Assembly: GCF_964019385.1 (NCBI RefSeq)
Contig: NC_088649.1
Span: 21,035,508 to 21,099,507, forward strand
DNA: 64,000 bases
From: Sycon ciliatum
Lineage: Eukaryota; Porifera; Calcarea; Leucosolenida; Sycettidae
Reading direction: 5' to 3'
The notes under the pieces were generated by a model. The model did not search any database and was not told where the DNA came from. It was given only the letters and a program-made list of their open reading frames with translations. A program made the translations under genes and the position numbers. How positions within the stretch are numbered: position 1 is the first letter of the stretch; every line of letters starts with the position of its first letter. Shown piece after piece: positions 7,257 through 64,000 of the stretch.

Positions 7257-7260
7257 TTAA
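7257..7260. other. Unoccupied TTAA target, ancestral state of the A/B insertion site
   Basis: Here gctaggtatgtgaggggga is followed by TTAA and then gggccaggatagaac. In copy 2 the left flank is at 18411-18435 and the right flank begins at 33382, with elements A and B between, each bounded by TTAA. This is the empty paralogous site for both. Confidence 0.7.
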
Positions 7261-7462
7261 GGGCCAGGATAGAACTGACGAGATTTCCTGGGCTGTCAAG
7301 GTGAGTATTAATGCCTAATCCAACGTCGCAGAGCGCTGCAACCTCTACATAGTACCACATCCTTGCACCAGCCCGCAGAATCTCACTCAATAAGCGCAAG
7401 AATATTGTGTGGAAGTGTCGCCATGCTGCGAAGTTCCTGTTTGGCAAATACAAAGGTGTCAC
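7261..7462 (-). other. Region conserved between unit U copies, open on both strands
   Basis: Closely matches 33386-33587. The minus strand is open (NFAAWRHFHTI, EILRAGARMWYY, AALCDVGLGI), as is part of the plus strand. No family recognised and no convincing splice sites: copy 2 has a gtaagt where copy 1 has gtcagt. It could be a lost exon next to the LRR exon at 7781, but I cannot show it. Confidence 0.25.
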
Positions 7463-7780
7463 CTAAATCACTCTTGATAGGGATGCTGAACCCATGTATG
7501 AAATTCCTCACTCTTACTTACACAAATCGCTGCCTCCGTAACACAACTGCATATAATTGGATATTGGCTATTCATCCAGTATTAGTTTTCTGGTGATTGC
7601 CTATGGGCATGAAACTATTAATTACAACGCCTGATGCATGGTGCTCTGTGCCATGTGTGAGATAGCTCTATTCGAACCGTTCGGAACGAATATTGAGCAC
7701 TCTACTGAGCCAGAGGACTCTCATTTGTAGAAGCCATAATGTTCAAATCAATCATAATAATGGTGACAGGCCAGACTCAC

Positions 7781-7852
7781 AGCGATTGTAATTCTTTAGT
7801 TGTTCGAAACAATCCCTCTGGTAGCCGAGTGAGCTGATTCGTGTCCAAATCT
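7781..7852 (-). CDS. LRR exon 1 (72 nt, one leucine-rich repeat)
   Basis: On the minus strand the acceptor tgtgttgtag is followed by exactly 72 nt and the donor gtgagt. The exon encodes one 24-residue repeat of the form LDTNQLTRLPEGLF plus RTTKELQSL. It begins with one and ends with two bases of a codon, so it is a symmetric phase-2 exon that can be duplicated or skipped without frame change. Its paralogue at 34014-34085 lies in unit U copy 2. LRR exons of this size and phase are typical of animal LRR receptors and matrix proteins. Expression is not shown. Confidence 0.7.
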
Positions 7853-7999
7853 CTACAACACAGAAAGGTTCAGTGGTTTCGTTTTAGTACACAGAGCAGT
7901 GAAAGAAAGTGTTTTAAAGGATTGGGAGAATTTAAAATGTCACAGGGTCCATCGGGGATGTGAACTGGGGTTTTTTGGGAATGGGTTTGCTCCCACACT

Positions 8000-8330
8000 G
8001 GAGCTCACGCTATTCCGCCGACTTTACTTGACACTTGACTGATGACTCACGACTGCCATCCAGAGCACACGAGAAGTCCATCGAACCTTCGACTCGGCAA
8101 ACCTGCAAGAAAGCTCTTGCTCGTGCTCTCCAGGCACAAACATCACCAGGGAAACAAACTAACAGAAAACGCTCCGTTTCCAGCTCGACAAACACCTCCT
8201 GAACACCAGATAGCAGCGTGAGTAAGTGTCGCTGTTGGACGGTGAGAACAGACGTCGAGGACCCTCGGTCATTCACAACACTGTCACCTCCAAACCAGCT
8301 AGTCGCAAGCCCGCGCTGGGTACAAGATAA
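8000..8330. mobile_element. H1-family remnant, ribozyme part deleted
   Basis: Strong match to the arm of the 12 kb palindrome (cgctattccgccgac through cccgcgctgggtacaag), in the orientation of the left arm. Between gcaagaaagc and tcttgctcgtg the whole hammerhead segment present at 12130-12235 is missing. The neighbouring tail (accaaagtcg, aaccactatttcg) matches the tail of the H1 insertion at 12890-12923. Confidence 0.6.
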
Positions 8331-8429
8331 AATGTATAAAAAATCATCACCAAAGTCGAAACCACTATTTCGTAAGAGATGTTTAGGCAGTTCAATTCCC
8401 CGACTGATCCTTTGAAATTATTAGTAATA

Positions 8430-8856
8430 CAGGTGGAATCCTGATAATTCGAACTCCAACATGCTATGGAAATTTTCCAATTATCCGGACATTCTTATTG
8501 TCATTATGTATGTCAAAAATGCCAGCATTGACACACATTATTGCACTATGCATCTAAGACGCAGGTTTAGTGGACACTAAACTGCCTGCGCATGGAAACG
8601 AAACTGATTTGCAGAAAATAAAGCGAACATCTAAATATGCTTTGCTAACTTAGAATTATCAGCACAAATCCCACCCATTTTCTATGAAAGTGGATTCGAT
8701 GGGACTTCTAATTGACCGGACATACCCAGTTCGAAGTTGGAATTACCAGAAATTGTTATTTGGAAATCGTATTGACAGAAATCGGTGGCAGGAGAAACTT
8801 CTGATTGAGCAGTATGTTCTAATTACGCCATAATCTAAATATCAGGATTCCACCTG
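8430..8856. mobile_element. MITE with pogo/Tigger-like ends, copy 1
   Basis: Left end CAGGTGGAATCCTGATAATT and the inverse at the right end (atcaggattccacctg) form terminal inverted repeats. GATAATTCGAAC and TTATCCGGA just inside resemble pogo/Tigger ends from Tc1/mariner relatives. The element is 427 bp and has no coding capacity. A TA precedes the left end; the right TA is mutated. The same MITE sits at 34642-35068, so it predates the unit U duplication. Confidence 0.65.
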
Positions 8857-9103
8857 TGTTAAATTATTATTATTCCCGGCAGTGGCAGTAGATTTTTCCT
8901 TCAGACTTTTCCCTTTTCTATTCCCTCAAACAATGAATATTTTCATTATCACTATCAGCCCGTTTGCCTGTTTGCGAGTGAATGAGGTGCTTATACGCTT
9001 GGTAGCGCAGAATAGGTAATACAGAAAATATCAAAAAAAAGTCCTAAAAAGACACAAACGTTCGTGATGTACAAGGAAATATCGACATACGTGTCGTCAA
9101 AGT

Positions 9104-9107
9104 TTAA
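9104..9107. other. Unoccupied TTAA target in unit U copy 1
   Basis: The flank tgtcgtcaaagtttaaacaa is intact here. At 35313-35316 the same TTAA is followed by a piggyBac-type end (CCCTTTACC), and at 44502-44505 it is followed by family B copy 3, which ends in TTAA at 46718-46721. Confidence 0.75.
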
Positions 9108-10899: not shown

Positions 10900-11172
10900 A
10901 ATACAAAGTGTTTTGCAACGCCAGTTGCTGTTCTTGTTCTCTGAGCTCAGTCAACTGGACCATGGACAATTCTGGATGCAATTCATTGTTGCAAGTAAGT
11001 AAGGTATTTGTTTGAGTTTGTATTCCATGTTGTACTGAGTTTCTCAAACAGATCGTCATCGATGTATAGAGGGAAAAGCCTACTGTACTGCGAAGCGGAA
11101 GAAGACAACATCCTCGCGCTCCATACGGAGGATGAAATATTTTGTGGATTTGCATCGGAAACAGAAGTAAGA
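10900..11172 (+). CDS. Candidate spliced coding segment with a 57-nt intron
   Basis: The plus strand reads SELSQLDHGQFWMQFIV up to a gtaagt at 10995. A ctcaaacag acceptor ends at 11051. Removing these 57 nt keeps an open frame (NRHRCIEGKAYCTAKRKK onward) to a stop near 11170. A second frame after the acceptor is also open and acidic (CEAEEDNILALHTEDEIF), and related acidic sequence continues past 11180 (HSDESFEIDTFIEFKRID) in another frame. I cannot choose between them. No family recognised. This is the best candidate for a non-LRR host gene. Confidence 0.3.
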
Positions 11173-11316
11173 CCATGACGGCCACAGCGACGAGTCATTT
11201 GAGATTGACACTTTCATCGAGTTTAAAAGAATTGATGCGGGCAATCCTACGATCTGCAGTGACAAGGAGATTTACACTGGTGCCAACCTGTCGAGCGATT
11301 GGCATCGACACTGACT

Positions 11317-11577
11317 TCTGACATTTCCCACAAGTAATCTTCCGTGCCCTTCCCTCGGGTGAAATACAGACAAGAACAAACAGGAATGAAAACAGGCTGC
11401 CCGAGTCATGCTGCTCTTTTCTCTCCGAAACTAAACACGGGCAGCCTTAGAGTGGAGTGAGTTGCCAGTATAATTCAACCCAAGTATTGATTGATAGGAG
11501 AAGGATACATTTTCCAACACCGTAGATGGAAATCATTTTTGTCGCTCAGCTGGTTAGAGCATTGCTCGCGAAATTCC
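11317..11577. repeat. Dispersed repeat ending in a tRNA-like box A, copy 1
   Basis: Matches 15960-16225 (starting ctgacatttcccacaagtaa). At 11541-11560 it reads gtcgctcagctggttagagc, the 5' half of a tRNA including pol III box A. No box B follows; instead the sequence changes to the H1 family within 20-30 bases. It looks like a SINE head joined to, or interrupted by, a ribozyme element. Confidence 0.5.
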
Positions 11578-11963
11578 TTTATCAGTTTTGTATTACTGGT
11601 GAGAGTGGAGAGCTCTATGTAAGTGGTGCTCACCAGGCTCAACTTGGCCTAGTAAAGCTCAACTGATGAGGGGTGAATTCCTAGAAGCACGGTGTGTTGA
11701 GCAGGGAGTGGTGCTGTCTTGCAGCTTAGCCGAATGCAAGGCTTGAAGTACGTCTCTTCTGGTCTGGATTGCAGTCGTAAGTCAGTCAACATACAATTAA
11801 AGCGAGAAAAACACGACCTGCAGTGTGGAGAGCAATACTTCAGAGCGATCCATTTTCTGTTTTAGGATTCATTGTTCCTATATGAACCCAGAACAATATT
11901 GATTTTGGACGTATATCTAGTCTCCAATGTGTGCCCGACCCTCAACACTGAGCCAATTTAGTG
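11578..11963 (+). mobile_element. H1-family copy with a decayed hammerhead
   Basis: Begins gttttgtattactggtgaga and follows the H1 arm through ctcaactgatgagg to gcagtcgtaagtcagtc. It shares a further tail with 41148-41528 (cacgacctgcagtgtg, gagcgatccattttc). The ribozyme at 11651-11709 keeps CUGAUGA and stem I (GCUCAA/UUGAGC), but the GAAA box is GAAG and stem II ends CCUA, so cleavage is not expected. Confidence 0.6.
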
Positions 11964-12141
11964 TATATCGGAAGCAATTTATGTTTGAAGACTATACCTT
12001 ATCAGAAAGGGTTTGCTCCCCACACCGGAGCTCGCGCTATTCCGCCGACTTTACTTGACACTTGACTGACTCACGACTGCCATCCAGAGCACACGAGAAG
12101 TCCATCGAACCTTCGACTCGGCAAACCTGCAAGAAAGCACC

Positions 12142-12200
12142 ACTCCCTGCTCAATACACAGTGTTTCGGGGAATTCACCCCTCATCAGTTGAGCTTGAGT
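12142..12200 (-). ncRNA. Type I hammerhead ribozyme H1, left arm
   Basis: Mirror image of the copy at 12691-12749. On the minus strand CUGAUGA is at 12188-12182, with the same stems and the same UA cleavage site. Only the strand differs. Confidence 0.7.
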
Positions 12201-12650
12201 AGGCTGAGGAAGATTGTGCCTGAAGAGCACCACTTATATAGTGCTCTCCAGGCACAAACATCACCAGGGATACAAACTTACAGAGACGCTCCGTTTCCAG
12301 CGCGACAAACACCTCGTGAACACCAGATAGCAGCGTGAGTCAGTGTCGCTCCTGGACGGTGAGACAGACGTCGAGGACCCTCGGTCATTCGCAACGCTGT
12401 CACCTCCAAACCAACTAGTCGCAAGCCCGCGCTGGGCACAACAGTACTGTTGTGCCCAGCGCGGGCTTGCGACTAGTTGGTTTGGAGGTGACAGCGTTGC
12501 GAATGACCGAGGGTCCTCGACGTCTGTCTCACCGTCCAGGAGCGACACTGACTCACGCTGCTATCTGGTGTTCACGAGGTGTTTGTCGCGCTGGAAACGG
12601 AGCGTCTCTGTAAGTTTGTATCCCTGGTGATGTTTGTGCCTGGAGAGCAC

Positions 12651-12657
12651 TATATAA
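12651..12657 (+). promoter_or_regulatory. TATA-like box in the loop of a hairpin (H1 arm)
   Basis: Tatataa lies between gtgcctggagagcac (12636-12650) and gtgctcttcaggcac (12661-12675), which pair with one mismatch. The ribozyme begins 16 nt after this hairpin. A mirrored copy is at 12234-12240. The 11.6 kb copy has ctatgtaa and the 16.2 kb copy ctatataatt at the same place. Promoter function is inferred from sequence only. Confidence 0.4.
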
Positions 12658-12690
12658 GTGGTGCTCTTCAGGCACAATCTTCCTCAGCCT

Positions 12691-12749
12691 ACTCAAGCTC
12701 AACTGATGAGGGGTGAATTCCCCGAAACACTGTGTATTGAGCAGGGAGT
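12691..12749 (+). ncRNA. Type I hammerhead ribozyme H1, right arm
   Basis: All conserved core bases are present. Stem I is GCUCAA (12697-12702) with UUGAGC (12737-12742), plus a distal ACUC/GAGU helix across an aa/agg internal loop. CUGAUGA is at 12703-12709. Stem II is GGGG/CCCC with loop UGAAUU. GAAA is at 12724-12727. Stem III is CA-CUG-UG, then UA, so cleavage would fall after 12736. The asymmetric internal loop in stem I is where natural hammerheads make their tertiary contact with loop II. Stem III is too short to be stable alone but CACUGUG pairs with itself around one U-U mismatch, as in dimer-active ribozymes. Confidence 0.75.
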
Positions 12750-12946
12750 GGTGCTTTCTTGCAGGTTTGCCGAGTCGAAGGTTCGATGGACTTCTCGTGT
12801 GCTCTGGATGGCAGTCGTGAGTCAGTCAAGTGTCAAGTAAAGTCGGCGGAATAGCGCGAGCTCCGGTGTGGGGAGCAAACCCTTTCTTACAAATTATCGC
12901 CGAAGTCGCAACCACTACTTCGTACTATACCTTATCATCAATTTTA

Positions 12947-13163
12947 CACAAGGGAACGGTCTCAAACTGCGGAGAATGCTCAATGCAAGCGAGGCAGAGC
13001 TTCATCACACACAAGCGGAAAAACCGTCAGAGATCAAATTCCATTACACAGTGTTTCACCGTTCAAGCAACGGATCATCAGATCATCCATCTGATGATCC
13101 GTTGCTTGAACGGTGAAACACTGTGTAATGGAATTTGATCTCTGACGGTTTTTCCGCTTGTGT
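12947..13163 (+). mobile_element. H2 hammerhead element with 13-bp target duplication
   Basis: Flanked by ATCATCAATTTTA at 12934-12946 and 13164-13176. The 217-bp insertion has a non-repeated head (12947-13008) and a near-perfect hairpin, 13009-13163, with 75-nt arms around a 5-nt spacer (catcc). Its left target duplication overlaps the right duplication of the H1 element by four bases, so both elements entered almost the same target. Confidence 0.7.
13080..13141 (+). ncRNA. Type I hammerhead ribozyme H2
   Basis: CUGAUGA at 13091-13097. Stem II is CCGUU/AACGG with loop GCUUG and a U-U at its base. GAAA is at 13115-13118, then CACUGUG, then UA (cleavage after 13127). Stem I is CCAU (13087-13090) with AUGG (13128-13131), then an internal loop and AGAUC/GAUCU. 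The CC that completes stem I lies in the hairpin spacer, so only the plus strand forms it well. Stem III and cleavage triplet are identical to H1, although stem II and the rest differ, which suggests related families. Confidence 0.65.
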
Positions 13164-13179
13164 ATCATCAATTTTAAAA

Positions 13180-13950
13180 TGTTATATGTTTGGGCTATGA
13201 TATGGGTTTGTGCTTGTAAAATACCGGTGGGATGTGGCCGTTCATACCGAAGTTATAGGCATTTGAAATACGAGAGAGCTTGGAAGCTCAGGGCCCTACG
13301 CTATGCTTTTTTGCCTTGATGACCTAGACAAAAAAAGCATAGGGATGTAAAAAATTCTTATAAGTTTCAATTTTTTTGGTTTTTAGACATAACCTGGAAA
13401 TCGAACCCCCACTATCGCCCTGCATGCATCCACCGATACAATTCGCATACATACTAATTCTTCCAAGTTGCTTCACGTTATGATCTTGTATTTGAAAGCC
13501 CTATTTGAATATGCATTGTGGCCAGCCGTCTTTGAATGTATGGTACGGGATAGGTACGGGACAGGCACGGGACAGGTACGGTCGAGGGTAATACGACACC
13601 GTCTACAGCCTTGTTGACGGCAAAAAAAGAAAAGGGATGTTATAAATTTTTCAATTCTCCTATTTTTTTTTCAGGCATTACCTGGGATTCGAACCCGCAC
13701 TATCGCCCCACATGCATTCCCCCATACACTTCGCATTCATACTCATTCTTCCAAGTTGCTTCACATTATGATCTTGCGTTTGAAAGCCCGATTTGAATCC
13801 TGCGGCCAGCTGTATGTGGCCAGCTGATGGTACGGTACCGTACGGGATAGATACGGGATAGCTCCAGGCGTGGCACAAACACACAACAAATACCTAACGA
13901 GAGAGCTTGGAAAGGCAGGGCCCTACGCTATGCTTTTTTGCCTATACTAA
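13180..13950 (-). repeat. Two tandem SINE-like units with pol III box B
   Basis: On the minus strand ggttcgatttcc near 13409 and gggttcgaatccc near 13696 fit the box B of tRNA-derived SINEs. Around them the two units share cctggRattcgaaccc, actatcgcccYRcatgcat and attcttccaagttgcttcac. A second shared block, cagggccctacgctatgctt, occurs near 13290 and 13925. Box A is not clear. A run of ggtacgg/gataggtacggg repeats lies between (13540-13580 and 13830-13860). Confidence 0.45.
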
Positions 13951-14355
13951 TACTATGAGTGAACTATTGCAAGAGTTGTGATGCAAAGCTGGTCTGAACT
14001 GCGTACAGGGTCAGTAGGCCTCGGTCTGGATCATGAATAACATTGTTTTGTATTGTATTGCTTTTATTTTACTTAGCAAGTCAAACTTGGGAAAAGGAAA
14101 GTGTGAAATACTGTTGACGAGCATTGGACATGCATGCAGCGTCGGAAATTCGGCGCGGAAAATCAATCACTATTCAATGCAGAAACAACGTGCCAGAATC
14201 AGAGTACTATGTAGCTAGTGAGAGTCGGTGTACTAGTTTTGCAGTACTTCACACTTTCCTTTTCCCGCCTTATCACCTCAGCTATGACAGTTTCGTATGT
14301 GGAAACCCCCTTTATAATAGCAGTTTGATCTATATTTTTAATCATTCAACATCTA

Positions 14356-14399
14356 CCTTCACTGATGAGCTATGTATTAGCGAAACAGCTGTCTGAAGG
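14356..14399 (+). ncRNA. Type I hammerhead ribozyme H3, copy 1
   Basis: Stem I CCUUCA (14356-14361) pairs with UGAAGG (14394-14399). CUGAUGA is at 14362-14368. Stem II is GCUA/UAGC with loop UGUAU. GAAA is at 14382-14385. CAGCUG follows, then the canonical cleavage triplet GUC ending at 14393. All core positions match. CAGCUG is fully self-complementary, so stem III would form best between two molecules. No sequence similarity to H1 or H2 outside the core. Confidence 0.75.
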
Positions 14400-14844
14400 A
14401 GTTTATCAATATCGTCTACGGAAGGGTCCTCGCAATGGTGATGGTTGTGTGCAGGAGGGTCTAGTCGGCTAAAGAGCGCTTTCGGCCATTTTGCTGTCCT
14501 ATTTTTATTTTTGGAGGTCTTGAATGCACGGTAACCCCCCTAAAATTATATATTTCTAGGTTCTATGAAGTATAAGGATCTAAAAAATAAAATAAGAAGG
14601 GCATGTCTATGAAGAAATTATGAAGGTGTGCACCCAATTGTACTTTGCGGACGGGCATTTCTGCTAAGTTCATTTTTGTACCAAAATTACTATTTTCTGA
14701 GTAGTCAATGCTGCTTGCCAGATTTTCTTGCTCAAAAGCTTCATTGTGATGTGTGAACGGACTTGCAATCACAAAGAGAAGCCAAACAACCGGTAAATCT
14801 GAAATATGACCCCAAAGCAAGCAAATTTAGGCCGAAATCGATAA

Positions 14845-14865
14845 CCCCCCCCCCCCCCCCCCCCC
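14845..14865. repeat. Run of 21 C
   Basis: An uninterrupted C run. The paralogous positions near 42740 and 43335 read cacccaccccc, so the run expanded in this copy only. Confidence 0.8.
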
Positions 14866-15136
14866 GCCAGAAATACACCTCAATCTCCGCGGAAACACCC
14901 CCTAAATTTGTTGTGAAGTAACATGGGATGATACAGAGCACACTCATCCACAATAAAGGAGGGGGTTTATGAAGAAAAAAATCACCCCCAAAGGGTTGGA
15001 GCCTCCTTAATGGTCCTTTCTTAAACTTTAATCTCTAGTGAAACTCTCTCACTTTAAACTTTAAATTATCTCAAAATAACGTGATTCATGCAAGAAAGTC
15101 TCTTTGCGATCCATATATTATAATGTTATAACTTAC

Positions 15137-15208
15137 AGGCTGGTTAATTTGGATGTGGCTTGAAACAGTCCTGCAGGAAGGTCAACAAGTTGATTATTGC
15201 TTACCACT
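15137..15208 (-). CDS. LRR exon 3 (72 nt)
   Basis: Minus strand: acceptor tttgttttcacag, 72 nt, donor gtaagt. Encodes SNNQLVDLPAGLF and QATSKLTSL. Same phase as the other exons. Paralogue at 43022-43093 in segment S copy 2 with matching intron borders. Confidence 0.7.
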
Positions 15209-15230
15209 CTGTGAAAACAAAGTAGAAATC

Positions 15231-15958
15231 TGCTCAGGCATACCCCATGGTCTGCAGGAAAGTACCCGTTGTACCCAAGGTCCTTCGCATTGTGATATTC
15301 TTCAGTATGGAACAACACACCCATGCCCGGGGCAAGGAAGGTCATGGGTAATAGGAACACTTAATAGATGTGGTATACTGTAATCATTGTTCCATGTCAC
15401 TTGCGTATGAATATTCAATTTGGAAATACCAGAATAGTCTCTTCACTTCCAAAAACTAAACATTCAAAATATTTCCTTCAAGAATACAATTACTCGCCAA
15501 AGGCATAAAGGAGGTTTGCAGAGCTGCACGCAACTCCGAGCTTCTTGCTGAATGCAATCATCATGATCGCTACCTAGGAGACTAAAAAGCGTAAACCCTT
15601 ACAGTCCATTCATCGAACACAGTCCTCCTGGTTTTTGATAGTCCTATCCCGGCCGAGTTGAGGATCAAAAAAATGACTTTTAATATCAAAAATCTGGGGT
15701 TAGGATCTGCTTCTCCTGAAATTAGGCCATGGCATACCTGTTCTGATTTTATAAAACCTGGCTGACTTTCTATTTCCCGGTACTTGGACTTTTTCTGGCC
15801 TAAATGGGGCAAGAAGTAATTGCATGGTTCACACAATGCAGGATGCACTGTTGTTTTGACTATCTACAACTAGGTGCGGGAGACATCAAAAAGTTAGGGT
15901 GCCAGTTTCCAATGAATGGACTTAAGTAGCAGAGCAAAGTTCAGGTCCAACAATAACA
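15231..15958. other. Intron-like or intergenic sequence, no gene seen
   Basis: The first 130 bases continue the intron shared with segment S copy 2 (cccatgcccggggcaaggaa at 15321 and 43207). The rest has no recognised feature and no repeat partner in the window. Confidence 0.4.
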
Positions 15959-24934: not shown

Positions 24935-25470
24935 TGAGTAGACGGTGAACCTCTTTCAGTAGTCTATATATGGTGTTATGGCAAATCACTGCCGCTAGCC
25001 TTTGGGTGTCATTACGTTCATGGTAATTCCAATGCATGCCCGCATCAACGTGCCCTTCTTTGGTGTCAGTTATGCTGTGTGCACGCATAGAGGTGATACA
25101 TTTATTGTTCCTGTGTGGACCAGTCTAATCATAATTATTCCTGGCTGTTCTTTTGTGCTATTCATGCTATTCATGATGCATGTAGTAGTAGTAGTGCATC
25201 GTGTTGTGTTGTTATGCATGTCTCATGTGCCGTTTCCCGCGCGCGCGTGAAACGGACTTCGCGGCTTGTAGTTTCTGTGCCTAATTAGTTGAGTCGGCGT
25301 CTTGTTGTTTGGACTGGAGACTACACCGAGTTGTGTTTCTTTTCGTTGTTTTCAGTCAGTTACAGCTTGCAGTTATTCCTCTCGTGTAGTTCAGTTGCTT
25401 TGCTAGTGTCTCATCCTGAAGTAAAGTATATTCGTTATTATCTCTGTGAGTCAGATCCCTCTCTCGTCTA
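24935..25470 (+). repeat. BEL/Pao 5' LTR (536 bp)
   Basis: Starts TGAGTAGACGG, ends CTCTCGTCTA. About six differences from the 3' LTR by eye (roughly 98.9% identity), so the insertion is young. Contains ctatatatgg near 24964 as a possible TATA. Preceded by aagtg, repeated after the 3' LTR. Confidence 0.9.
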
Positions 25471-25471
25471 A

Positions 25472-25489
25472 TGGTAGCAGAGGATGGTT
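25472..25489 (+). promoter_or_regulatory. Primer binding site
   Basis: Tggtagcagaggatgg starts one base after the 5' LTR with the TGG expected opposite a tRNA CCA end. I did not identify the tRNA. Confidence 0.65.
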
Positions 25490-25522
25490 ATCTTCACCTA
25501 GTCGGAAGTCCATCGGAGCGAG

Positions 25523-27693
25523 ATGTCTGAACACAGCGACGATATCAGTCACGAGCGGAACAGGGTCACGGTAGGCGATGATGTTGGGCCTGGCGATTAT
25601 GTTGAGCCTGGCAATTATGTTGAGCCTGGTAATACGGACGGCCAGGAAGAACAAGTCAACGATGCTGTGACCTCGGCATCTGCAGACATGAGAGTGGCAA
25701 AAATTCAAATGAAACGGCGCTTGACGTCGCGGCGACGAGGCTTGATTTTGCAGATCCGTGACGAGAAGTTGAGTTTGGATGCCGTGAGAGACGAATTCGA
25801 GGCAGTGCAATGGTTCGCCAACGAGGTGAATCAGGTGTTGGAGTCACTGGTGACGTGTTTTCAAGCCGAGAAAAAGGCAAAGCAGTCGACGCAGCAATAA
25901 CGGAGCTGGAGGAAGTGGCAGAAGCAATGGCGCACCTGGAGCAGCAGGTGGAGATGTACGAGGAGCAACAACATATTCGTGCGCGTCATTCCGCAGGGTT
26001 CAGTCAGTACCACCCTGTTATGCCATCAAGCTTCAACGCTGCTCACGACCCATTAGGTGGGGTGTCAGGAACTGCTCAGTCTGCGAGTTCTGCACAGTCC
26101 GCTAGACCGTCTTCCGCGCCTGGTGGCGTCAGTGCGGACTTCACTCCTGTCACAAGCAACACGGACACATCTGCAGCAAGCAACACATTCAGCACCAACA
26201 GGCCTGTCAGTGCCAGTGTCTCAAGTAAAAGCGCAATCACCTCACTTTCTTCGTCTGTAGGTGCACCCACAAGCTCCAGCTCTACTCCACCAGCCAGTGT
26301 GAGTGCAGGGAGCAGTCACCACTCCAGTTCTAGTACCAGTAGTAGCCATAGCATCAGTTCCCGCACAAGTAGCAGTGCGCCAGCAGCAGCAGCAGGCCCC
26401 ACAGTGCCACTGAGTCAGGCCAGCAACACCAGCGCACCTGTAGCTGTACAAGCAACCAATAGCAATGTACTGCCCAGGCAATCAGCCCCTGTTCACTCCA
26501 GCAGGGTACACACAGCAGTCATGAGTGGAAGTAGCCAGAGACCAGCCCATACATTACACCAGTCTGTGGCCGCCGTCCCATTTGTACCTAGAGCCAGTTT
26601 CAGGCCTACACAGAGTGTGGCACATGGCCATGGCGGCAGCTACAATGGTCTACCAGTACCAACCCCATTGAGACCATCTAGTTTTGCTGCACCACCAGCT
26701 GGAGCCACAGACGTCTTCAGCAAAATGAGAAGCATTTCAATACCCGTGTTTGATGGTGATAAGCGTGCCTATGAGTTATGGAAGGCCGCGTTCCTGGCGT
26801 GCGTGGACAGTGCGCCAATCAGCCCAACCCTGAAGCTGTTGCAGCTACGACAGTATGTAGCGGGAGAAGCGCTAAGATGCATCGAGCGGCTAGGGTACGC
26901 CCCGGACTCATACCACAAGGCAATGGAACGCCTGGAACGGAAATTCGGAGGTACGCGGCGCCAAGTGATGGTGTACTTAGATGAACTGGAACGATTCAAG
27001 CCATTGCACGGAGATCGAGTCAACGCACAAGATCTGGAACAGTTCTCAGATTTGTTGGAAGTAGCCGTGACCAACTTGAAAGCAGCGGGTCGCCAATCGG
27101 AGCTAGAGGTGGGCACTCTGTACGCGCGAATCCAGCAGAAGCTGCCAAAAGACCTGCTGACAAGATACCATAGGTGGCTCTATGAGCATCAGCGCCCAGA
27201 AGGGGTGGAGGCGTTGCTCGAGTGGGTCAATCTCGAGGCCGACTTTCACATTACCGCCAATGAAGCCATCGCAGGCCTAGCACCTGGTCGCCATAGACAT
27301 GGCCGAGAGCGCCCAGCAGCCCGAGGCCACTCATTCCATGCAGCAGAGTCACCCAATCCGACACCGGCAGAGTGTCCAGTATGCTCCCAGGACCATCAAG
27401 TGTGGACATGCAAAGAGTTCAAGGAAATGGATGTGGACAAGCGTTGGAAAGTGGCGAAAACACATCGGCTCTGCTATCGCTGTCTGGGCAAGGGCCACCG
27501 AGGTGCTAACTGCCAGCGGAAGAGAAAGTGTGGCGTAGACAAGTGCAGCGATACCCACAACTATCTGCTTCACAGGGCAGTAGCCATTGACACGTCTAGA
27601 GCCAGAAATGGCACGGAAAGGGTCGTACCAGTGAGACAGCCAGAACCACAACCACTGCTAACATCGGAGCAGGCGTCAGACCATTGTCACTGA
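25523..27693 (+). CDS. gag: BEL/Pao Gag, with one frame change
   Basis: The ATG at 25523 opens MSEHSDDISHERN, followed by a charged helical region; this frame stops at 25900. The continuation is in the next frame, open from before 25870 to 27693. The change falls at or near the five-A run 25871-25875, so a one-base indel would explain it; a sequencing error there is equally possible. Then come a coiled coil (LEEVAEAMAHLEQQVEMYEE), about 250 residues of Ser/Thr/Pro-rich linker, the capsid-like DUF1759 region (FDGDKRAYELWKAAFL to near 27270), and cysteine clusters CPVC...H..WTC and CYRCLGKGHRGANC that bind RNA. The gag end overlaps the pol frame. Confidence 0.85.
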
Positions 27694-30600
27694 GAACCTT
27701 GCCGGTCGTTTTACGAAACGGTGACCGCAACCTCAGGGTGAATGCGCTGTTGGATGATGGGAGCACCCAAAGTTATGTGAACACAGAGGTAGCGGACCAG
27801 CTCAACTTGCAGGGACCCATGAAACAGGTTTCGATCAGCACCCTCAACGGAGCAGTGGAGTCTTTCGAGTCAATGCCAGTGGATCTGCTGGTAGAGAGTG
27901 TAGATGGCAAGTACATCAGTCCGTTCTCAGCCATCACAACTAGTCACGTCACAGGCACACTGAAACCGTACGATTGGACCGTCGAGTCAAGTCAGTACCA
28001 TCATCTGCTGGACATACCCTTCGAACAGCCAGCAACTCGCCAGATTGATATGCTGATTGGCTTGGATCATGCCGAGCTTCACTACTCTCTGGAGGAGGTG
28101 AGGGGTGATCAGGGAGAACCGGTGGCGAGGAGAACCGCGCTAGGTTGGACCTGTGTTGGACCTGTGAGTGGAAGCTCAGATCATCACCGCACTCACTTCA
28201 GCAGAGTCGATGACGGTAATCTGGAGATGCTGGTCCGGCGTATGTGGGAGGTGGAAGAGCCTCGCCGACAGAGCCCGCTTGCAGCAAATGACCGACAAAC
28301 TCTTGCAGATGCAGAGGCAGCAACAAAGTACTGCAACGGCAGGTACACCGTCAAGCTGCCTTGGAAGAGAAGCCCGCCAGAGGAGAACGTTAGCTACGAG
28401 ATGGCACTGAAGAGACTGCGCTCGACAGAGAAACGCCTCCACAAGGAACCAGAAGTAGCAAAGGAGTACTGCCGTGTACTGCAGCATCATGTGAACGCTG
28501 GATACGTGACTGCAGTAAAGCTCGAGTCAACAGGTGGTTGGTACCTCCCGCACTTTCCAGTCACCAGACCAGATGCAACAACAACTAAAGTGAGGGTGGT
28601 CTTTGACGCATCAGCCAAATGCAAAGGAGCAAGCCTGAACGACTACCTCCACCCAGGACCGAAGCTGCAGAGAGAGCTACCGCACATATTGCTGCGATTC
28701 AGGGCAAAGCCAGTTGCTATCGTGGCCGATGTAGCAGAGATGTACCTCCAGATCGAGCTGTCTGAAGATGATCAGAAATTTCATCGTTTTCTGTGGCGGG
28801 ACTTGGATGCGTCAAAGGAGCCAGTCGCCTACCAGTACCAACGGGTGGTGTTTGGCGTGAATTCGTCCCCATTCCTAGCGCAAATGGTGTCTCAGAAACA
28901 TGCTGAGCAGCTAAAAGAAGATTTCCCACGTGCTGCAGAAGCGGTGTTGAAGTCGACTTATATGGACGACACTATGGATTCCACCGACGATGACAAGGAT
29001 GCCATCAAACTGTACCAGGACCTGAGTGAGCTGTGGCACCGTGCCGGAATGCATCCTCGCAAGTGGATTTCGAACAGCACCGAGCTACTCCAACTGATCC
29101 CACCGGAAGATCGTGCCAAGCAGGTGAATATTCAGGATAGTATTCTGCCGTCAACCAAAGCGCTTGGTGTGCAGTGGGATGCAGAGACGGATGTCTTTAC
29201 GTTCAGGTGTCGAGCACCAAGTTACTCAGTCCTGACCAAGCGGACCTTTCTGAAGATTCTGGCGACTCTGTTCGACCCGCTGGGGTTCGTCTTGCCCTTC
29301 GTGATGAGTGGCCGCATCCTGTTCCAGGAAATGTGGGTCGATGGTATTCAGTGGGATGAGCCACTGCAAGATGATCTACATGCCCGAGCAGTGCAATGGT
29401 GTGATGAATTCGAGAAGCTAGAAGCCGTGGCTGTGCCCCGTTGTTTGAGACTGTCAAACACAGAAGCGATCACTGCCACGGAACTGCACGTCTTCAGCGA
29501 CGCATCGCAAGACGCATATGGAGCAGTCGCCTACCTCCGTCACAGCTACGAATCCGGGGCTGTGACCTGTCGCCCGGTGGCAAGTAAAGGCAAGGTAGCT
29601 CCGATAAAAAGCACCAGCATCCCGCGTTTGGAGCTGACTGCGGCGGTAGTTGCAGTAGATTTGGCTGTGTCAGTGGGTGAAGTGCTGGCTATACCCGAGA
29701 GCAGTTGGCATTGGTGGACGGATAGCATGAACGTCTTGTGGTGAGTGCGCAATCGAAGTCGCCAGTTCAAGCCATTCATTGCCAACAGAGTGGCAGAGAT
29801 TCAAGCCTCAAGTCAGCCAGGTCAGTGGCACTACGTCCCGACAGAGTGCAATCCTGCAGATGTGGTTTCCCGTGGGTCCAGTGCCGCCAAGCTTGTACAG
29901 GAGGCCCAATGGTGGAATGGACCGCAGTATCTTCTCCTTGACAAGTCCCAGTGGCCGCCACCACCCAGCAAACTCACTTGTCCTGTCGTGCCCGAGGTGA
30001 GGTCCGCATGCAAGGAAGCCACAATGAGCACAGTTGAAGGAGTGTCACTCTTCACGTTTGTGAGCAAAGATTGGAAGCTGGAACCCAGGAACTTCTCATC
30101 GTGGAGAGTCGCCGTACGTCGTCTAGCCTTGGTGCTTCACTTTGTCAGCAACTGCCGCACCCCGGTTGATGAGAGGCAAGTCGGCAGCTTGAGCCCTGAG
30201 GAAGTGACAGACGCGGAGCTTTCCTTCACCAGAACAGCTCAACAAGAGAGCTTCCCAGAGTATGCTCTCCTGAGAAAGGGGAAGGCAATCCCAACGACCA
30301 GCAAACTGGCTAGTCTTTGTCCTCGGCTAGATGAAGATGGAGTCATGCGAGTGGAAGGACGGACCCAGAATGCAGAATTCCTACCCGAAGCAACTAAGCA
30401 TCCAATCGTTCTACCACGTCACAACTGGGTTACATACCTGATTGTCAAGGACCAACATGAGGCTGCGAACCATGCTGCTGGAGTCAACCACACGTGGTCC
30501 CTGCTGAGGCAACGCTTCTGGATCATTGCGGGACGAGAAGCAGTTCGTGAGTGCGAGCAGAGGTGTACTGAATGCAGAAAGAGGAAAGCCAAACCTGTCA

Positions 30601-31562
30601 CTCCAATCATGGCCCCTCTGCCGAAGATACGGTTAGAGTCACCGCGTCGTGCCTTCGGCCGGGTTGCTGTGGACTACGCCGGGCCATTTACGACAGTTCA
30701 GGGTCGAGGACAGAGGCGGGCAAAGAGATACCTCTGCCTCTTCACTTGTCTCACGTGCCGTGCTGTGCATTTGGAGTTGTCCTATTCCCTGGACACCAGT
30801 AGCTTCTTGAATGCCTTCGAGAGAATGAGCAACCGCCGAGGCGTGCCAGAAGAGGTCCTGTCGGACAATGGGACGAACTTTGTAGGAGGACAACGCGAGC
30901 TGAAAGAGCTAGAGCAAGAACAGGCGGCGCTCCAGTTGAAGTACCCACGTGTACGGTGGCACTTCATTCCTCCAGGTGCCCCGCATTTCGGCGGCGTTCA
31001 CGAGACCATGGTCAAAGCCGCCAAGAAGGCCATTCATGCAGTTCTGAGTGATGCCAGCATCACCGATGAGGAGCTTCAGACCGCTTTCTGTAGTGCCGAG
31101 TCTCTCCTCAACTCAAGACCGCTAACAATCCCTTCTGTGGATGCCAGAGACGACTTGCCCTTGACTCCGAACCACTTCTTGGTTGGACGTGTGGAGCAGT
31201 TCTCCATCGGCACCAGCAGTGACGATTACCGCCTACAACAAAGATGGAGGAGAGTGCAAGAACTTGTCACACACTTCTGGCACCGTTGGATGAAAGAGTG
31301 GGTCCCCGGACTGAATCGCCGTGCTAAGTGGTCAGCCGAGGAAAGGAACATAGCAGTTGGAGATATCGTCCTGGTGATCACGGCAGATACGCCACGGGGT
31401 AAATGGCCCCTTGGAAGAGTGACGGAAGTGATGCCAGGTCAAGACGGCACCGTGCGTGTGGCAAGAGTGCTAGTTGGCGGGAAGACAGTGACCAGGCCTG
31501 TGGTGCGACTGTGCCCAGTTGTCACGGTGGGCGTCGCTGGACCTGATGATAGTGAGGACTGA
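27684..31562 (+). CDS. pol: BEL/Pao Pol, one in-frame TGA
   Basis: In the -1 frame relative to the end of gag and overlapping it; no ATG marks the start, so it probably depends on frameshifting or fusion. Domains in order: aspartic protease ([13 protein letters not shown]), reverse transcriptase ([32 protein letters not shown], active site TYMDDTMDS), RNase H ([29 protein letters not shown]), integrase with an HHCC zinc region (30390-30590) and DDE residues in [19 protein letters not shown] and HFGGVHETM, and a C-terminal DUF5641-like domain. A TGA at 29742-29744 stands where the family has tryptophan, inside RNase H before the last catalytic Asp (NPADVVSRG). The rest of the frame is open. 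Confidence 0.9.
29742..29744 (+). other. In-frame TGA in pol
   Basis: TGG TGA GTG: the second of two tryptophan codons usual at this point is TGA. The reading frame continues unchanged for 606 codons. It could be a point mutation, a sequencing error or readthrough; a single G-to-A change explains it. Confidence 0.8.
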
Positions 31563-31738
31563 TTCTGAATCGCCCTAGCATGCTTACCGGCTGGATGTGT
31601 CTCTCTTGTGCATCAGTCGTCCGTTTTTGCAGCCATTTATGTTTCTGTACAGCTAGCTCATAGCTCGTTACGTTTCGTTTTCTTTTCTGATAGTTCATTT
31701 TAGTTGTATCAACGTTGATACTTACCGGTAGTTGTATC

Positions 31739-31751
31739 AAGGAGGGTGGAA
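31739..31751 (+). promoter_or_regulatory. Polypurine tract of BEL element
   Basis: Aaggagggtggaa directly precedes the 3' LTR; expected plus-strand primer. Confidence 0.75.
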
Positions 31752-32287
31752 TGAGTAGACGGTGAACCACTTTCAGTAGTCTATGTATGGTGTTATGGCA
31801 AATCACTGCCGCTAGCCTTTGGGTGTCATTACGTTCATGGTAATTCCAATGCATGCCCGCATCAACGTGCCCTTCTTTGGTGTCAGTTATGCTGTGTGCA
31901 CGCATAGAGGTGATACATTTATTGTTCCTGTGTGGACCAGTCTAATCATAATTATTCCTGGCTGTTCTTTTGTGCTATTCATGCTATTCATGATGCATGT
32001 AGTAGTAGTAGTGCATCGTGTTGTGTTGTTATGCATGTCTCATGTGCCGTTTCCCGCGCGCGCGTGAAACGGACTTCGCGGCTTGTAGTTTCTGTGCATA
32101 ATTAGTTGAGTCGGCGTCTTGTTGTTTGGACTGGAGACTACACCGAGTTGTGTTTCTTTTCGTTGTTTTCAGTCAGTTACAGCTTGCAGTTATTCCTCTC
32201 GTGTAGTTCAGTTGCTTTGCTAGTGTCTCATCCTGAAGTGAAGATTATTCGTTATTATCTCTGTGAGTCAGATCCCTCTCTCGTCTA
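31752..32287 (+). repeat. BEL/Pao 3' LTR (536 bp)
   Basis: Same ends and length as the 5' LTR. Differences cluster near the end (gtgaagattatt against gtaaagtatatt). Followed by the target duplication aagtg. Confidence 0.9.
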
Positions 32288-32292
32288 AAGTG

Positions 32293-33381: not shown

Positions 33382-33759
33382 TTAAGCGCCAGGATAGAAC
33401 TTACGAGATTTCCTGGCCTGTCAAGGAGCGTGCTTATGCCTAGTGCAACGTCGCACAGCGCTGCAACCTCTGCATAGTACCACATCCTTCCACCAGCCCG
33501 CAGAATCTCACGCAACAAGTGCAAGGATATTGTGTGGAAGTGTCGCCATGCTGCGAAGTTCCTGCTTGGCAAATACAAAGGTGTCACCTAAATCATTCTT
33601 GCTAGGCATGCTGAATCCATGTACGAAATTCCTCACTCTTGCTTACACAAATCGCTGCCTCCGTAACACTACTGCATATAATTGGATCTTGGCTGTTCAT
33701 CCAGTATTAGTTGTCTAATGATTGCCTATGGGCATGAAGCTATTAGTTACCACGAATGA

Positions 33760-33903
33760 TGCATGGTGCTGTGTGACGTGTGTAAGATAGCAATGCATGG
33801 TGCTCTGTGTGACGTGTGTAAGATAGCAATGCATGGTGCTCTGTGTGACGTGTGTAAGATAGCAATGCATGGTGCTCTGTGTGACGTGTGTAAGATAGCT
33901 CTA
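33760..33903. repeat. 36-bp minisatellite, four copies
   Basis: Unit gcaatgcatggtgctctgtg plus tgacgtgtgtaagata. Copy 1 of unit U has a single, slightly different copy at about 7636-7672. The expansion is therefore specific to copy 2. One frame reads as a 12-residue repeat with CDVC, but I take this as accidental. Confidence 0.75.
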
Positions 33904-34013
33904 TTCGAACCGTTCGGAACGAATATTGAGCACTCTACTGAGCCAAAGGACTCGCATTAGTAGAAGTCATAATGTTCAAATCAATCATAATAATGGTGAC
34001 AGGCCAGACTCAC

Positions 34014-34085
34014 AACTGGTATAATTCTTTAGTTGTTCGAAACAATCCCTCTGGTAGCTGAGTGAGCTGATTCCCATCCAAATCT
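34014..34085 (-). CDS. LRR exon 4 (72 nt)
   Basis: Minus strand: acceptor tgtgttctag, 72 nt, donor gtgagt. Encodes LDGNQLTQLPEGLF and RTTKELYQ. Paralogue of 7781-7852; the frame, splice sites and length are all kept. Confidence 0.7.
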
Positions 34086-34199
34086 CTAGAACACAGAAAG
34101 GTTCAGTGGTGTCGTTTTAGTACACAGAGCAGTGAAAGAAAGTGTTAAAAGGATTGGGAGAAAATAAAAATTTAGAAGGGTCCGTCGAGGATGTAAACT

Positions 34200-34530
34200 G
34201 TTTTTTTCTCTGCCTAAAAGGTTTTTGGGAATGGGTTTACTCCCACACTGGAGATCACGCTATTCCGTCGAATTGACTTGACACTTGACTGACGACTTAC
34301 GGCTGCCATCCAGAGCACACGGCAAACCGGAAGAAAGCACCACTCCCCGGTCAATCCACAGTGTTTCAGGGAGTTCACTCCTCATCAACTGAGCTTTAGT
34401 AGGCTGACGAATATTGTGCCTCAAGAGTACCACTTCAATGGAGCTCTCCAGGCACAAACATCACCAGGGATACAGACTTACAGTGACAACACTGTCACCT
34501 CCAAACCAGCTAGTCGCAAGCATGCGCTGG
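34200..34530 (-). mobile_element. H1 remnant with a decayed hammerhead
   Basis: Matches the palindrome's left arm from cacactggagatcacgc to agcatgcgctgggtacaag. Unlike the remnant at 8.0 kb it keeps the ribozyme region (minus strand, 34341-34410), but the core reads UUGAUGA instead of CUGAUGA, so it should be inactive. GAAACACUGUG is intact. Confidence 0.6.
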
Positions 34531-34641
34531 GTACAAGATAAAAGGTATAAAAAAATTATCACCAAAGTCGCAACCACTATTTCGTAAAAGATGTTTAGGC
34601 AGTTCAATTCCCCGACTGATCCTTTGAAATTATTAGTAATA

Positions 34642-35068
34642 CAGGTAGAATCCTGATAATTCGAACCCAAAAAAGCTATGGAAAATTTCTTATTATCCGG
34701 ATATTCTTATTGTCATTATATATGTCTAAAATGCCGGCATTGACACACATACTTGCACTATGCACCTAAGAGGCAAGTTTAGTGGACACTAAACTGCCTG
34801 CGCATGGAAACGAAACTGATTTGCAGAAAATAAAGTGAACATCTAAATATTCTTTGCTAACTTAGAATTATCAGCACAAATCCCACCCATTTTCTATGTA
34901 AGTGGATTCGGTGGGGCTTCTAATTGACCGGACCTACCCAGTTCGAGGTTGGAATCATCAGAAATTGATATTTGGAAATCGTAGTGACAGAAACCGGTCG
35001 CGGGTGAAACTTCTTATTGAGCAGTATGTTCTAATTGCGCCATAATCTAAATTTCAGGATTCCACCTG
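34642..35068. mobile_element. MITE with pogo/Tigger-like ends, copy 2
   Basis: Same element as 8430-8856 at the same place in unit U. Ends caggtagaatcctgataatt and its inverse. Confidence 0.65.
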
Positions 35069-35316
35069 TTTTAAATTATTATTATTTCCGGCAGTGGCAG
35101 TAGATTTTCCTTTAGACTTTTCCCTTTTCTATTCCCTCAACCAAAGAATATTTTCATTATCATTATCAGCCTGTTTGCCTGTTTGCGAGTGAATGAGGTG
35201 CTTATACGCATGGTAGTGCAGAATAGGTCACACAGAAAATATCAAAAAAGTCCTAAAAAGACACAAACGTGCGTGATGTACAAGGAAATATCGACATACT
35301 TGTCGTCAAAGTTTAA

Positions 35317-41147: not shown

Positions 41148-41528
41148 GTTTGTATTACTGGTGAGAGTGGAGAGCTCTATGTAAGTGGTGCTCACCAGGC
41201 TCAACTTGGCCTAGTAAAGCTCAACTGATGAGGGGTGAATTCCTAGAAACAAGGTGTATTGAGCAGGGAGTGGTGCTGTCTCGCAGCTTAGCCGAGTGCA
41301 AGGCTTGAAGTACGTCTCTTGTGGTCTGGGTGGCAGTTGTGAGTCAGTCATTATACAATTAAAGTGAGAAAAACACGACCTGCAGTGTGCAGAGCAATAC
41401 TTCAGAGCGATCCATTTTCTGATTTACGATTCATTGTTCCTATATTAACCCAGAACAATTTTGATTTTGGACGTATATCTAGTCTCCAATGTGGGCCGGA
41501 CCCTCAATACTGAGCCCATTTAGTGTAC
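41148..41528 (+). mobile_element. H1-family copy, with core-intact hammerhead
   Basis: Same extent as 11578-11963, starting gtttgtattactggtgagag. The ribozyme at 41213-41271 keeps CUGAUGA, GAAA, stem I GCUCAA/UUGAGC and UA. Its stem II is GGGG/CCUA and stem III CAAGGUG has lost self-pairing, so activity would be weak if any. No TATA-like box (ctatgtaa). Confidence 0.6.
41213..41271 (+). ncRNA. Degenerate hammerhead, H1 family
   Basis: Core bases all present (CUGAUGA 41225-41231, GAAA 41246-41249, UA 41257-41258), but the base of stem II has a G-A mismatch and a G-U pair. Confidence 0.45.
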
Positions 41529-42128
41529 ATGTACTAGGAGTGAACTATTGCAAGAGTTGTGATGCAAAGCTGGTCTGAACTGCGTTCAGGGTCAGTAGGC
41601 CTCGTCCTGGATCATGAATACCGTTGTATTGTATTGCATTTAAACACACGACGAGGAGACAATAATTTGATAACCGCAATCAATAAAACTAGCTGAACCG
41701 ACATTTGTGTAGATTCAGAACATCTATCTGAGGCTGGGTGTATCTCGATTTAAAATATTATTTAAACACACGGCGAGGAGACAATAATTTGATAACCGCA
41801 ATCAATAAAACTAGCTGAACCGACATTTGTGTATTGTATTGCCTTTATTTTACATCGCAAGTCAAACTTGGGAAAAAGAAAGTGTGAAATACTGTTGACG
41901 CGCATTGGACATGCATGCAGCGTCGGAAATTCGGCGCGGAAAATCAATCACTATTCAAAGCAGAAATAACGTGCCAGGATCAGAGTACTATGTAGCTAGT
42001 GAGAGTCTGTGTACTAGTTTTGCAGTACTTCACACTTTCCTTTTCCCGCCTTATCACCTCAGCTATGACAGTTGGAAACACCCTATATAATACCAGTTTC
42101 AACTATATTTTTAATCATTCAACATCTA

Positions 42129-42172
42129 CCTTCACTGATGAGCTATGTATTAGCGAAACAGCTGTCTGAAGG
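42129..42172 (+). ncRNA. Type I hammerhead ribozyme H3, copy 2
   Basis: Identical to the copy at 14356-14399 across stems and core: CUGAUGA 42135-42141, GAAA 42155-42158, GUC ending 42166. Flanks differ at scattered positions, so the ribozyme looks at least as conserved as its surroundings. Confidence 0.75.
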
Positions 42173-43021
42173 AGTTTATCAATATCGTCTACGGAAGTGT
42201 CCTCGCAATGGTGATGGTTGGGTGCAGGAGGGTCTAGTCGGCTAAAGAGCGCAGTGTAATGGTGGCGGTGACTCAACATTTTATACAATGGCTGAGAGCT
42301 CTGTCGCACCCTGTAATAATGCATGGAATGATCACCTTACCTAAAAAATAGTAATTCCAAGAATGGTGGAAAATCGGCCATTTTGCTGTCCTATTTTTAT
42401 TTTTGGAGGTCTTGAATGCACGGTAACCCCCTTAAAATTATATATTTCTAGGTTCAATGAAGTATGAGGATCTAAAAAATAAAATAAGAAGGGCATGTCT
42501 ATGAAGAAATTATGAAGGTGTGCACCCAATTGTACTTTGCGGACGGCCATTTCTGCTAAGTTCATTTTTGTACCAAAATTACTATTTTTCTGAGTAGTCA
42601 ATGCTGCTTGCCAGATTTTCTTTCTCAAATGCTTCATTGTGATGTGTGAAAGGACTTGCAATCCCAAAGAGAAGCCAGACAACTGGTAAATCTGAAATAT
42701 GACCCCAAAGCAAGCAAATTTAGGCCGAAATCGATTAATGCACCCACCCCCAGAAATAAACATCAAACAGCCTTATCTCCGCGGAAACACCCCCTGATTT
42801 TTTGTGAAGTAACATGGGATGATACAGAGCACACACACCAACAAAAGGAGGGTACTATTTATGAAGAAAAAATCACCCCCAAAGGGTTGGAGCCTCCTTA
42901 ATGGTCCTTTCTTAAACTTTAACCTCTAGTGAAACTCTCTCACTTTAAAGTATCTCAAAATAACGTGATCCATGCAAGAAAGTCTCTTTGCGATCCATCT
43001 AATTATAATGTGATAACTTAC

Positions 43022-43093
43022 AGGTGTGTTAATTTGGTTGTGGCTTGAAACAGTCCTGCAGGAAGGTCAACAAGCTGATTTTTGTATAGTTCT
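43022..43093 (-). CDS. LRR exon 5 (72 nt)
   Basis: Minus strand: acceptor tttgttttcacag, 72 nt, donor gtaagt. Encodes LYKNQLVDLPAGLF and QATTKLTHL. Paralogue of the exon at 15137. Confidence 0.7.
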
Positions 43094-43230
43094 CTGTGAA
43101 AACAAAGTAGAACTCTGCTCAGGCATACCCCCATGGTTTGCAGGAAAGTATCCGTAGTACCCAAGGTCCTTCGCATCGTGATATTCTTCAGTATGGAACA
43201 ACACACCCATGCCCGGGGCAAGGAAGGTCA

Positions 43231-43460
43231 TTGTGATGTGTGAAAGGACTTGCAATCACAAAGAGAAGCCAGACAACTGGTAAATCTGAAATATGACCCC
43301 AAAGCAAGCAAATTTAGGCCGAAATCGATAAATACACCCACCCCCAGAAATACACCTCAAACAGCCTTATCTCCGCGGAAACACCCTCTAATTTTTTTGT
43401 GAAGTAACATGGGATGATACAGAGCACACTCATCCACAAAAAGGAGGGGGTTTATGAAGA
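43231..43460. repeat. Extra partial copy of a segment S block
   Basis: Repeats 42635-42865 in direct orientation on the far side of the LRR exon (tgtgatgtgtgaaaggactt, gaccccaaagcaagcaaatt, aaggagggggtttatgaag). Confidence 0.7.
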
Positions 43461-44339: not shown

Positions 44340-44505
44340 ATGCGGAGGCAGTAGGCTAAATGGAATGAAGAATGAGGATTGAGCGGAGTGAATGAAGTGT
44401 TTTTACGCATGCAAGTGCAGAACAGGCAACACAGAAAATATCAAAAAAGACGCAAATGGGTGTGATGTGCAAGGAAATATCGACACACTTGTCGTCAAAG
44501 TTTAA
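44340..44505. repeat. Unit U copy 3, left piece
   Basis: Matches 8965-9107 (gtgaatgaRgtgYttWtacgc, aaggaaatatcgac) up to the TTAA. It continues at 46722 beyond family B copy 3. Confidence 0.7.
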
Positions 44506-46717: not shown

Positions 46718-46756
46718 TTAAACATGCAACAATACCCTGATTTGCTCTTATCACGT

Positions 46757-55796: not shown

Positions 55797-64000
<8,204 letters not shown>

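Follow-up and report, generated by a model that had tools for sequence, protein, structure and literature searches.

The hammerhead-type motif on the two arms of a palindrome in the genome of the calcareous sponge Sycon ciliatum belongs to a non-coding unit of about 477 nt, named here unit A, which is retrozyme-like, carries a type I hammerhead and quite probably relies on Penelope-like elements (PLEs), whose machinery would move it in trans. The stretch of DNA analysed, referred to as the window, comprises 64,000 nt (C8:21035508-21099507) of a genome of 538 Mb in 313 contigs. The palindrome is a single insertion in which two A units meet head-to-head at their nt 1, and the 14-bp target duplication ACTATACCTTATCA lies on either side. 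Compared with its own reverse complement, the segment 12004-12887 is identical over 884 bp (100%), and taken as arms of 452 nt the identity is 99%. Nucleotides 1 to 479 of unit A correspond to window 12446 to 12924, and the predicted cut follows nt 291. Table 1 gives the coordinates.

Table 1. Features of the palindrome and of the related hammerhead elements, in window positions.
Feature	Position	Strand	Remarks
Unit A, right arm, complete	12446..12924	+	unit nt 1-479; final 1-2 nt common to target duplication
Unit A, left arm	12005..12445	-	unit nt ~442 to 1; without 3' tail
Head-to-head arm junction	12444..12447		GTAC common to both arms
Hammerhead A, right arm	12691..12749	+	predicted cut 12736/12737, GUA triplet; sequence, strict scan, covariance model
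Hammerhead A, left arm (mirror copy)	12142..12200	-	sequence, strict scan, covariance model
Left target-site duplication ACTATACCTTATCA	11991..12004		position read on sequence
Right target-site duplication ACTATACCTTATCA	12924..12937		position read on sequence
Tail, between outer 3'-end classes (unit ~442-453, ~475-479)	12888..12924	+	right arm only
Tail stem-loop CGAAGT-CGCAACCACT-ACTTCG	12901..12922	+	predicted fold, -5.5 kcal/mol
Element B, second head-to-head palindrome	12947..13162		own hammerheads 13083-13135 (+), 13040-13086 (-)
A2, diverged relative of unit A	41149..41530	+	hammerhead 41217-41266
A2, another copy	11587..11968	+	hammerhead 11655-11704 reads GAAG, not GAAA

The first-pass annotation had described a conserved hammerhead core with a mirror copy on the opposite strand, and the motif is confirmed on both palindrome arms. 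The right-arm segment reads GCUCAA-CUGAUGA-GGGG..CCCC-GAA-ACACUGUGU-A/UUGAGC with all conserved hammerhead positions present, and the conserved core, the three stems and the open stem I place it in type I. The strict structural scan and a covariance model built from this genome agree with this reading, the mirror is an exact copy within the perfect 884-bp palindrome, and the cleavage position proposed earlier coincides with the predicted cut after H17, which is A12736. Hammerhead A is a putative self-cleaving RNA. The strict scan gave 6 matches in the window and none in any of 20 first-order Markov shuffles; a looser pattern gave 12, with 3.0 expected, and 1 of 100 shuffles reached 12. The predicted RNA fold contains stems I and II as well as the distal helix; its energy is ordinary (z -1.4), with 18 of 200 shuffles folding equally well.

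The covariance searches gave a divided answer. At its gathering threshold Rfam returned 0 matches of any family in the whole window, and the search at E<=10 showed no hammerhead within 11000-13600 or 12680-12765, so that the Rfam search named in the first-pass annotation as its own check failed. Hammerhead A has the core and topology of Rfam Hammerhead_1 (RF00163) but is not matched by this model even at E<=10. RF00163 gives 30.1 bits to a member of a different hammerhead family in the same genome, and its 21 genome-wide matches at E<=0.001, four of them above the cut-off, belong to family D and not to A. The positive half of the answer comes from R1, a covariance model based on ten further hammerheads found in this genome, none from family A, which finds both A copies with 38.0 bits and an E-value of 3.6e-9. 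R1 has 11 matches in the window in total: the others are those in element B at 13083 (32.5 bits) and 13040, in A2 at 41217 and 11655, three weaker ones at 33707, 7582 and 15532, and those at 14354 and 42127, which belong to family C, represented in R1 itself. A search of this genome with RF00008 was empty, which says nothing about the genome because the control genomes were empty too. Rfam matches such as mir-2329 and MIR862_2 at 13031-13141 were discarded, being under their own cut-offs and on the hairpin of palindrome B, and the covariation in alignment A1 is inflated because most of its rows were taken from a scan in which pairing was a requirement.

Selection holding the hammerhead constant is suggestive only. 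Among 40 aligned units, 16 of 2360 alignment cells differ inside the hammerhead and 176 of 15694 outside (p 0.052), and the identity between A and A2 is 53/59 inside and 155/208 outside (p 0.012).

At other loci, unit A often forms exact tandem arrays with a period of 477; arrays in one direction contain four near-complete copies in L049, five in L051 and seven in L064. The unit has a GC content of 53.4% and no long open frame: the longest stop-free run in the doubled unit is 90 codons, and the same frame check found neither an RT nor a GIY-YIG open frame. Its RNA is predicted to be strongly self-paired (-202.5 kcal/mol, z -5.1), 0 of 100 shuffles reaching so low an energy. A genome search with unit A gave 327 first-look candidates spread across many contigs, 40 of which were scored and all matched, with 124 matches in all; copy counts are therefore lower bounds, the other candidates being unconfirmed.

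The inverted insertions were compared in two samples, a first locus set (the window and the L-numbered loci) and the 40 scored genome places. Inverted junctions are present at 12 loci of the first set, 11 of them independent, and at 22 of the 40 genome places, which add 19 independent cases, and all 30 independent junctions are head-to-head. For this count L051 was merged with L050 (one target site) and C12:2059575 with C12:2038493, recurrences of the window and of L055 were counted once, and the A2 copy on the plus strand, 170 bp before the left arm of the window palindrome, was left out as a separate element.

The outer ends fall into two classes. All 20 A insertions with both outer ends resolved have one end, and no more than one, at unit 475-479; the other, non-tail end lies at 442-453 in 15 and is shorter in five (433, 415, 388, 387, 259), of which the two at C10:11390674 and C11:13244393 could be search-edge effects. 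The 20 comprise eleven insertions of the first set (window, L049, L050, L052, L053, L055, L057, L059, L061, L062, L063) and nine genome places (C9:8823015, C10:11390674, C11:12759210, C11:13244393, C11:15395568, C11:16070293, C13:12695736, C14:2823854, C14:5889835); C3:17638304, C4:36298413 and C12:21950904, seemingly cut by the search edge, were left out, as were places with an edge piece of about 50 nt. Mixed ends, one of each class, in 15 of 15 insertions would have a probability of 3e-5 if the chance per insertion were one half; the query contains the tail, so sampling favours tail-bearing copies, which does not explain the absence of copies with two tails. In insertions without a clear inverted arm the ends lie at 443 (L054 and one of L063), 447 (L056), 479 (L058) and 474 (L064), and L054, L056 and L058 begin at unit nt 1 after short flanks that resemble inverted stubs by eye.

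Target duplications of 10-15 nt were found in 9 of the 17 rows compared, two rows representing a single site, and the shared flanking stretch is at most 7 nt in the remaining 8. L053 has the same junction as the window beside a different duplication, ACAACCAACCCA. In L049, with the duplication ATTATTGAATGTA, the minus arm runs from 446 through an array to 444 and the plus arm from 97 to 479, and in L062 the minus arm runs from 448 to 80 and the plus arm from 171 to 479, followed by two further units. Unit A lies beside the same 164-bp flank (89% identity) in L049 and L055 with different junctions, so that target sites may be reused. Junction microhomology is mixed and not decisive: 4 nt in the window, L053 and L051, 1 in L055 and 0 in L049 and L062, with one extra base at the L050 junction and no clean answer for L057, L059, L061 and L063. 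Stops at unit nt 1 resembled full-circle stops, with 10 of 27 inner ends in the first set, but this excess is doubtful because some of these loci came from a query centred on that junction; the inner end is at nt 1 in only 1 of the 19 further inverted genome places.

The arms also carry information on their template. Nine private variants, absent from the other examined insertions, recur in both arms and in every unit that covers them in five insertions (two in L049, four in L052, one each in L055, L061 and L062), which points to one RNA species behind both arms. Differences between arms occur at family-variable sites, namely 140 in L053, 117 in L052, 117, 351 and 450 in L061, and 450 in L063 and L055, while one unit of L062 deviates at site 363; the arm differences could stem from recurrent mutation or from a second template.

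A PLE as the putative helper of A is supported by the orientation plan, the two end classes and the single tail. Matches to PLE-type RTs indicate that they are abundant in this genome: the RT fragment of L065 gave 1545 candidates, of which 150 were scored and all matched, and that of L055 gave 2130, of which 131 were scored, and many matches of both queries sit in long stop-free frames. Pfam RVT_1 matched the L055 fragment only, not that of L065. The stretches after both fragments presumably resemble a GIY-YIG endonuclease, a likeness not confirmed by Pfam. PLEs here share the orientation plan of A. In 62 of the 150 scored L065-type rows, mostly chosen by eye for neighbours, 17 same-family pairs within 6 kb (identities to the query differing by at most 3 points) comprise 10 head-to-head, 7 tandem and 0 tail-to-tail pairs, and different-family neighbours form one tail-to-tail and one head-to-head pair. 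Arrays such as C7:1366261(-), 1369692(+), 1372627(+), 1375562(+) show, by eye, the same [-]n[+]m plan.

A sequence link between A and the PLEs finds no support in the six PLE terminal regions compared (L069-L074): exact stretches in common with A reach at most 12 nt, so that on this comparison none of the six has unit A as its terminal repeat. The first-pass annotation had taken the self-cleaving motif as the mark of a short non-coding mobile element, a retrozyme or a Penelope-type terminal repeat. The mobile element is borne out from both sides, since the unit is retrozyme-like and the insertions have Penelope-type anatomy, while the terminal repeat itself found no match among these regions. 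Group 1 regions (L072-L074) carry, by eye, an apparent minimal PLE hammerhead type ending GAAACGUUGU, to whose candidates R1 gives 12.9-18.7 bits (E 0.0027 to 0.17). The A tail has a weak likeness to two tails of one group 1 family (51 and 69 of 2000 shuffles doing as well) and none to those of two other families (1622 and 1372 of 2000). In L049, unit A is inserted at the right junction of a group 1 PLE terminal palindrome at about 1597-2362, whose arm ends are 36 nt apart and which has a 12-14-bp duplication.

The origin of A could also be sought in the PLEs themselves, A being a reduced PLE, an ORF-less terminal repeat and not an independent retrozyme, with the same movement. The hammerhead in the group 2 terminal regions (L069-L071) agrees with that of A in its 9-nt stem-loop III and its GUA site, and a 2024 review, in its accessible part, proposes that retrozymes arose by PLE reduction (PMC11722881). 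The failure to find a homologue of A among the six regions and the lack of a long open frame speak against this descent, which we consider conceivable but somewhat doubtful.

For the movement of A as a retrozyme by a PLE, the following course would fit. Tandem A units would be transcribed and cut by the hammerhead, and the monomers ligated into circles, or uncut multimers might serve. The PLE RT/endonuclease would cut the target strands some 10-15 bp apart, a spacing given by the duplication lengths seen, and reverse transcription would begin at two positions inside the RNA, one per target strand, namely unit ~445 and unit ~477; the assignment of the two starts to the two strands is inferred from the two end classes and the one tail end per inverted insertion. 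One cDNA may pass through several units, as arrays of up to seven suggest, and the cDNA 3' ends would be joined head-to-head; in the window palindrome both cDNAs would have stopped at unit nt 1 and met at GTAC. This course has its counterpart in the published accounts of PLEs, as far as their accessible text goes. With the purified lizard PLE protein, each of the two target strands is cut and extended, and reverse transcription begins internally at two sites, between which lies the tail of PLE genomic copies (PMC11167929), and in rotifer PLEs the inverted pLTRs are head-to-head, with an optional 31-bp tail on one of them (PMC3846280). A more tentative proposal, made with reservations as to the whole, is that two RT subunits of the PLE protein, each primed by one target strand, copy a single circular hammerhead RNA simultaneously from two fixed sites about 33 nt apart, each subunit being able to go round several times; the differences between arms make this slightly less probable. 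If true, such two-headed rolling-circle retrotransposition would have left its record in the [-]n[+]m arrays and the perfect palindromes.

The palindromes might instead arise by self-priming, through fold-back of a single cDNA or on an antisense template, and not from two primed cDNAs. The palindromes of the window and L053 are indeed perfect at the junction, and self-priming on an antisense template is favoured in the rotifer PLE paper, in the part accessible (PMC3846280). However, a model with one cDNA predicts equal arm positions, whereas the outer ends form two classes with a single tail each and most junctions join unequal unit positions (446-array-444 to 97 in L049, 80 to 171 in L062), which makes self-priming unlikely. 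Spread at the DNA level, with A as an ordinary tandem or inverted repeat (satellite or fold-back) and the hammerhead incidental, draws on L050 and L051, which share one target site with unequal unit number, so that DNA-level duplication and array change do occur; as the general explanation it is very improbable in view of target duplications that differ between copies, fixed outer ends and copies over many contigs. Perfect palindromes can be assembly artefacts and Rfam has no hammerhead match here, but an artefact or a chance match is scarcely credible given many insertions with varied duplications and junctions, the R1 E-value and the 0 strict matches in 20 shuffles.

Unit A is not the only hammerhead element of the window and the genome. 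Element B has TATCATCAATTTTA on both sides (12933-12946 and 13163-13176), a left arm about 63 nt longer, and a left duplication that overlaps the right target duplication of A. Family C hammerheads (GUC site, stem II GCUA/UAGC) lie at 14354-14401 and 42127-42174, in the window repeats 14046-15345 and 41827-43231. Weak hammerhead-like R1 matches at 7582-7631 (23.8 bits) and 33707-33756 (28.9 bits) are held in larger repeats, 7257-9107 and 33382-35316, together with pieces of unit A. Family D (L011, L012, L027, L065, L067) is retrozyme-like, with units of 226-228 bp, tandem at some loci, RF00163 scores of up to 34.9 and mostly a single orientation, with one head-to-head case (L027). The copies examined have a near-fixed 3' end at unit ~40-50, mostly 45-50, about 14 nt past the predicted cut; a cut linear monomer would yield only about 14 nt of cDNA, so the template should be circular or multimeric. 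The motif TTGAGCACTCT is, by eye, common to family D and the group 2 PLE terminal regions. The window further contains a LINE-type RT frame (649-2427), a BEL/Pao-type element (24935-32288) with Peptidase_A17, RVT_1 and integrase-type domains, which sits inside a fold-back repeat and has LTRs (24935-25471 and 31752-32288) that are 98.9% identical, a large inverted repeat at 44500-46723 (arms 44500-45308 and 45911-46723, 97%), and long tandem arrays with match offsets of about 51 bp at 57744-64000.

Compared with metazoan non-LTR retrozymes, as described in the accessible text of PMC7229834, A agrees in the type I hammerhead, the non-coding tandem units, the highly self-paired RNA and the target duplications, which, when present, exceed 4 bp in those elements too. 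It differs in unit length (477 nt as opposed to about 170-400 nt, a described range and not a mechanism) and GC content (53% as opposed to below 50%), and because both values are outside those reported A is not classed as a standard metazoan retrozyme. It also differs in its head-to-head palindromic insertions with a single tail, the word "inverted" being absent from that text. EN-bearing PLEs, in the accessible parts of their descriptions, likewise have head-to-head arms, tandem units, a tail on one arm, a target duplication and a terminal-region hammerhead (PMC3846280; PMC11167929), and A has their trait of inverted head-to-head arms with a tail of about 30-40 nt on one; A, however, has neither an RT nor an endonuclease frame, for which reason it is not classed as a PLE, and a homology to the six terminal regions was not found. 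A retrozyme-like RNA that is moved by a PLE is the best reading. The largely open-access literature searched yielded no paper on retrozymes with inverted and palindromic insertions and none that combines hammerhead ribozyme, head-to-head, tandem repeats and retrotransposon.

As the enzyme that moves animal retrozymes, LINEs or PLEs have so far been proposed, and a recent review, in its accessible part, still names both (PMC11722881). PLEs were called a strong candidate (PMC7229834) and are favoured, in the accessible texts, because they are found alongside retrozymes, contain type I hammerheads and occur in tandem (PMC7229834; PMC7761336; PMC11722881). Here the insertions themselves bear PLE-type marks. 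They give precise predictions, namely a separate start site for each of the two strands and, for the most part, a single template, and the outer ends of A would correspond, in the genome, to the two internal RT starts that a PLE showed in vitro.
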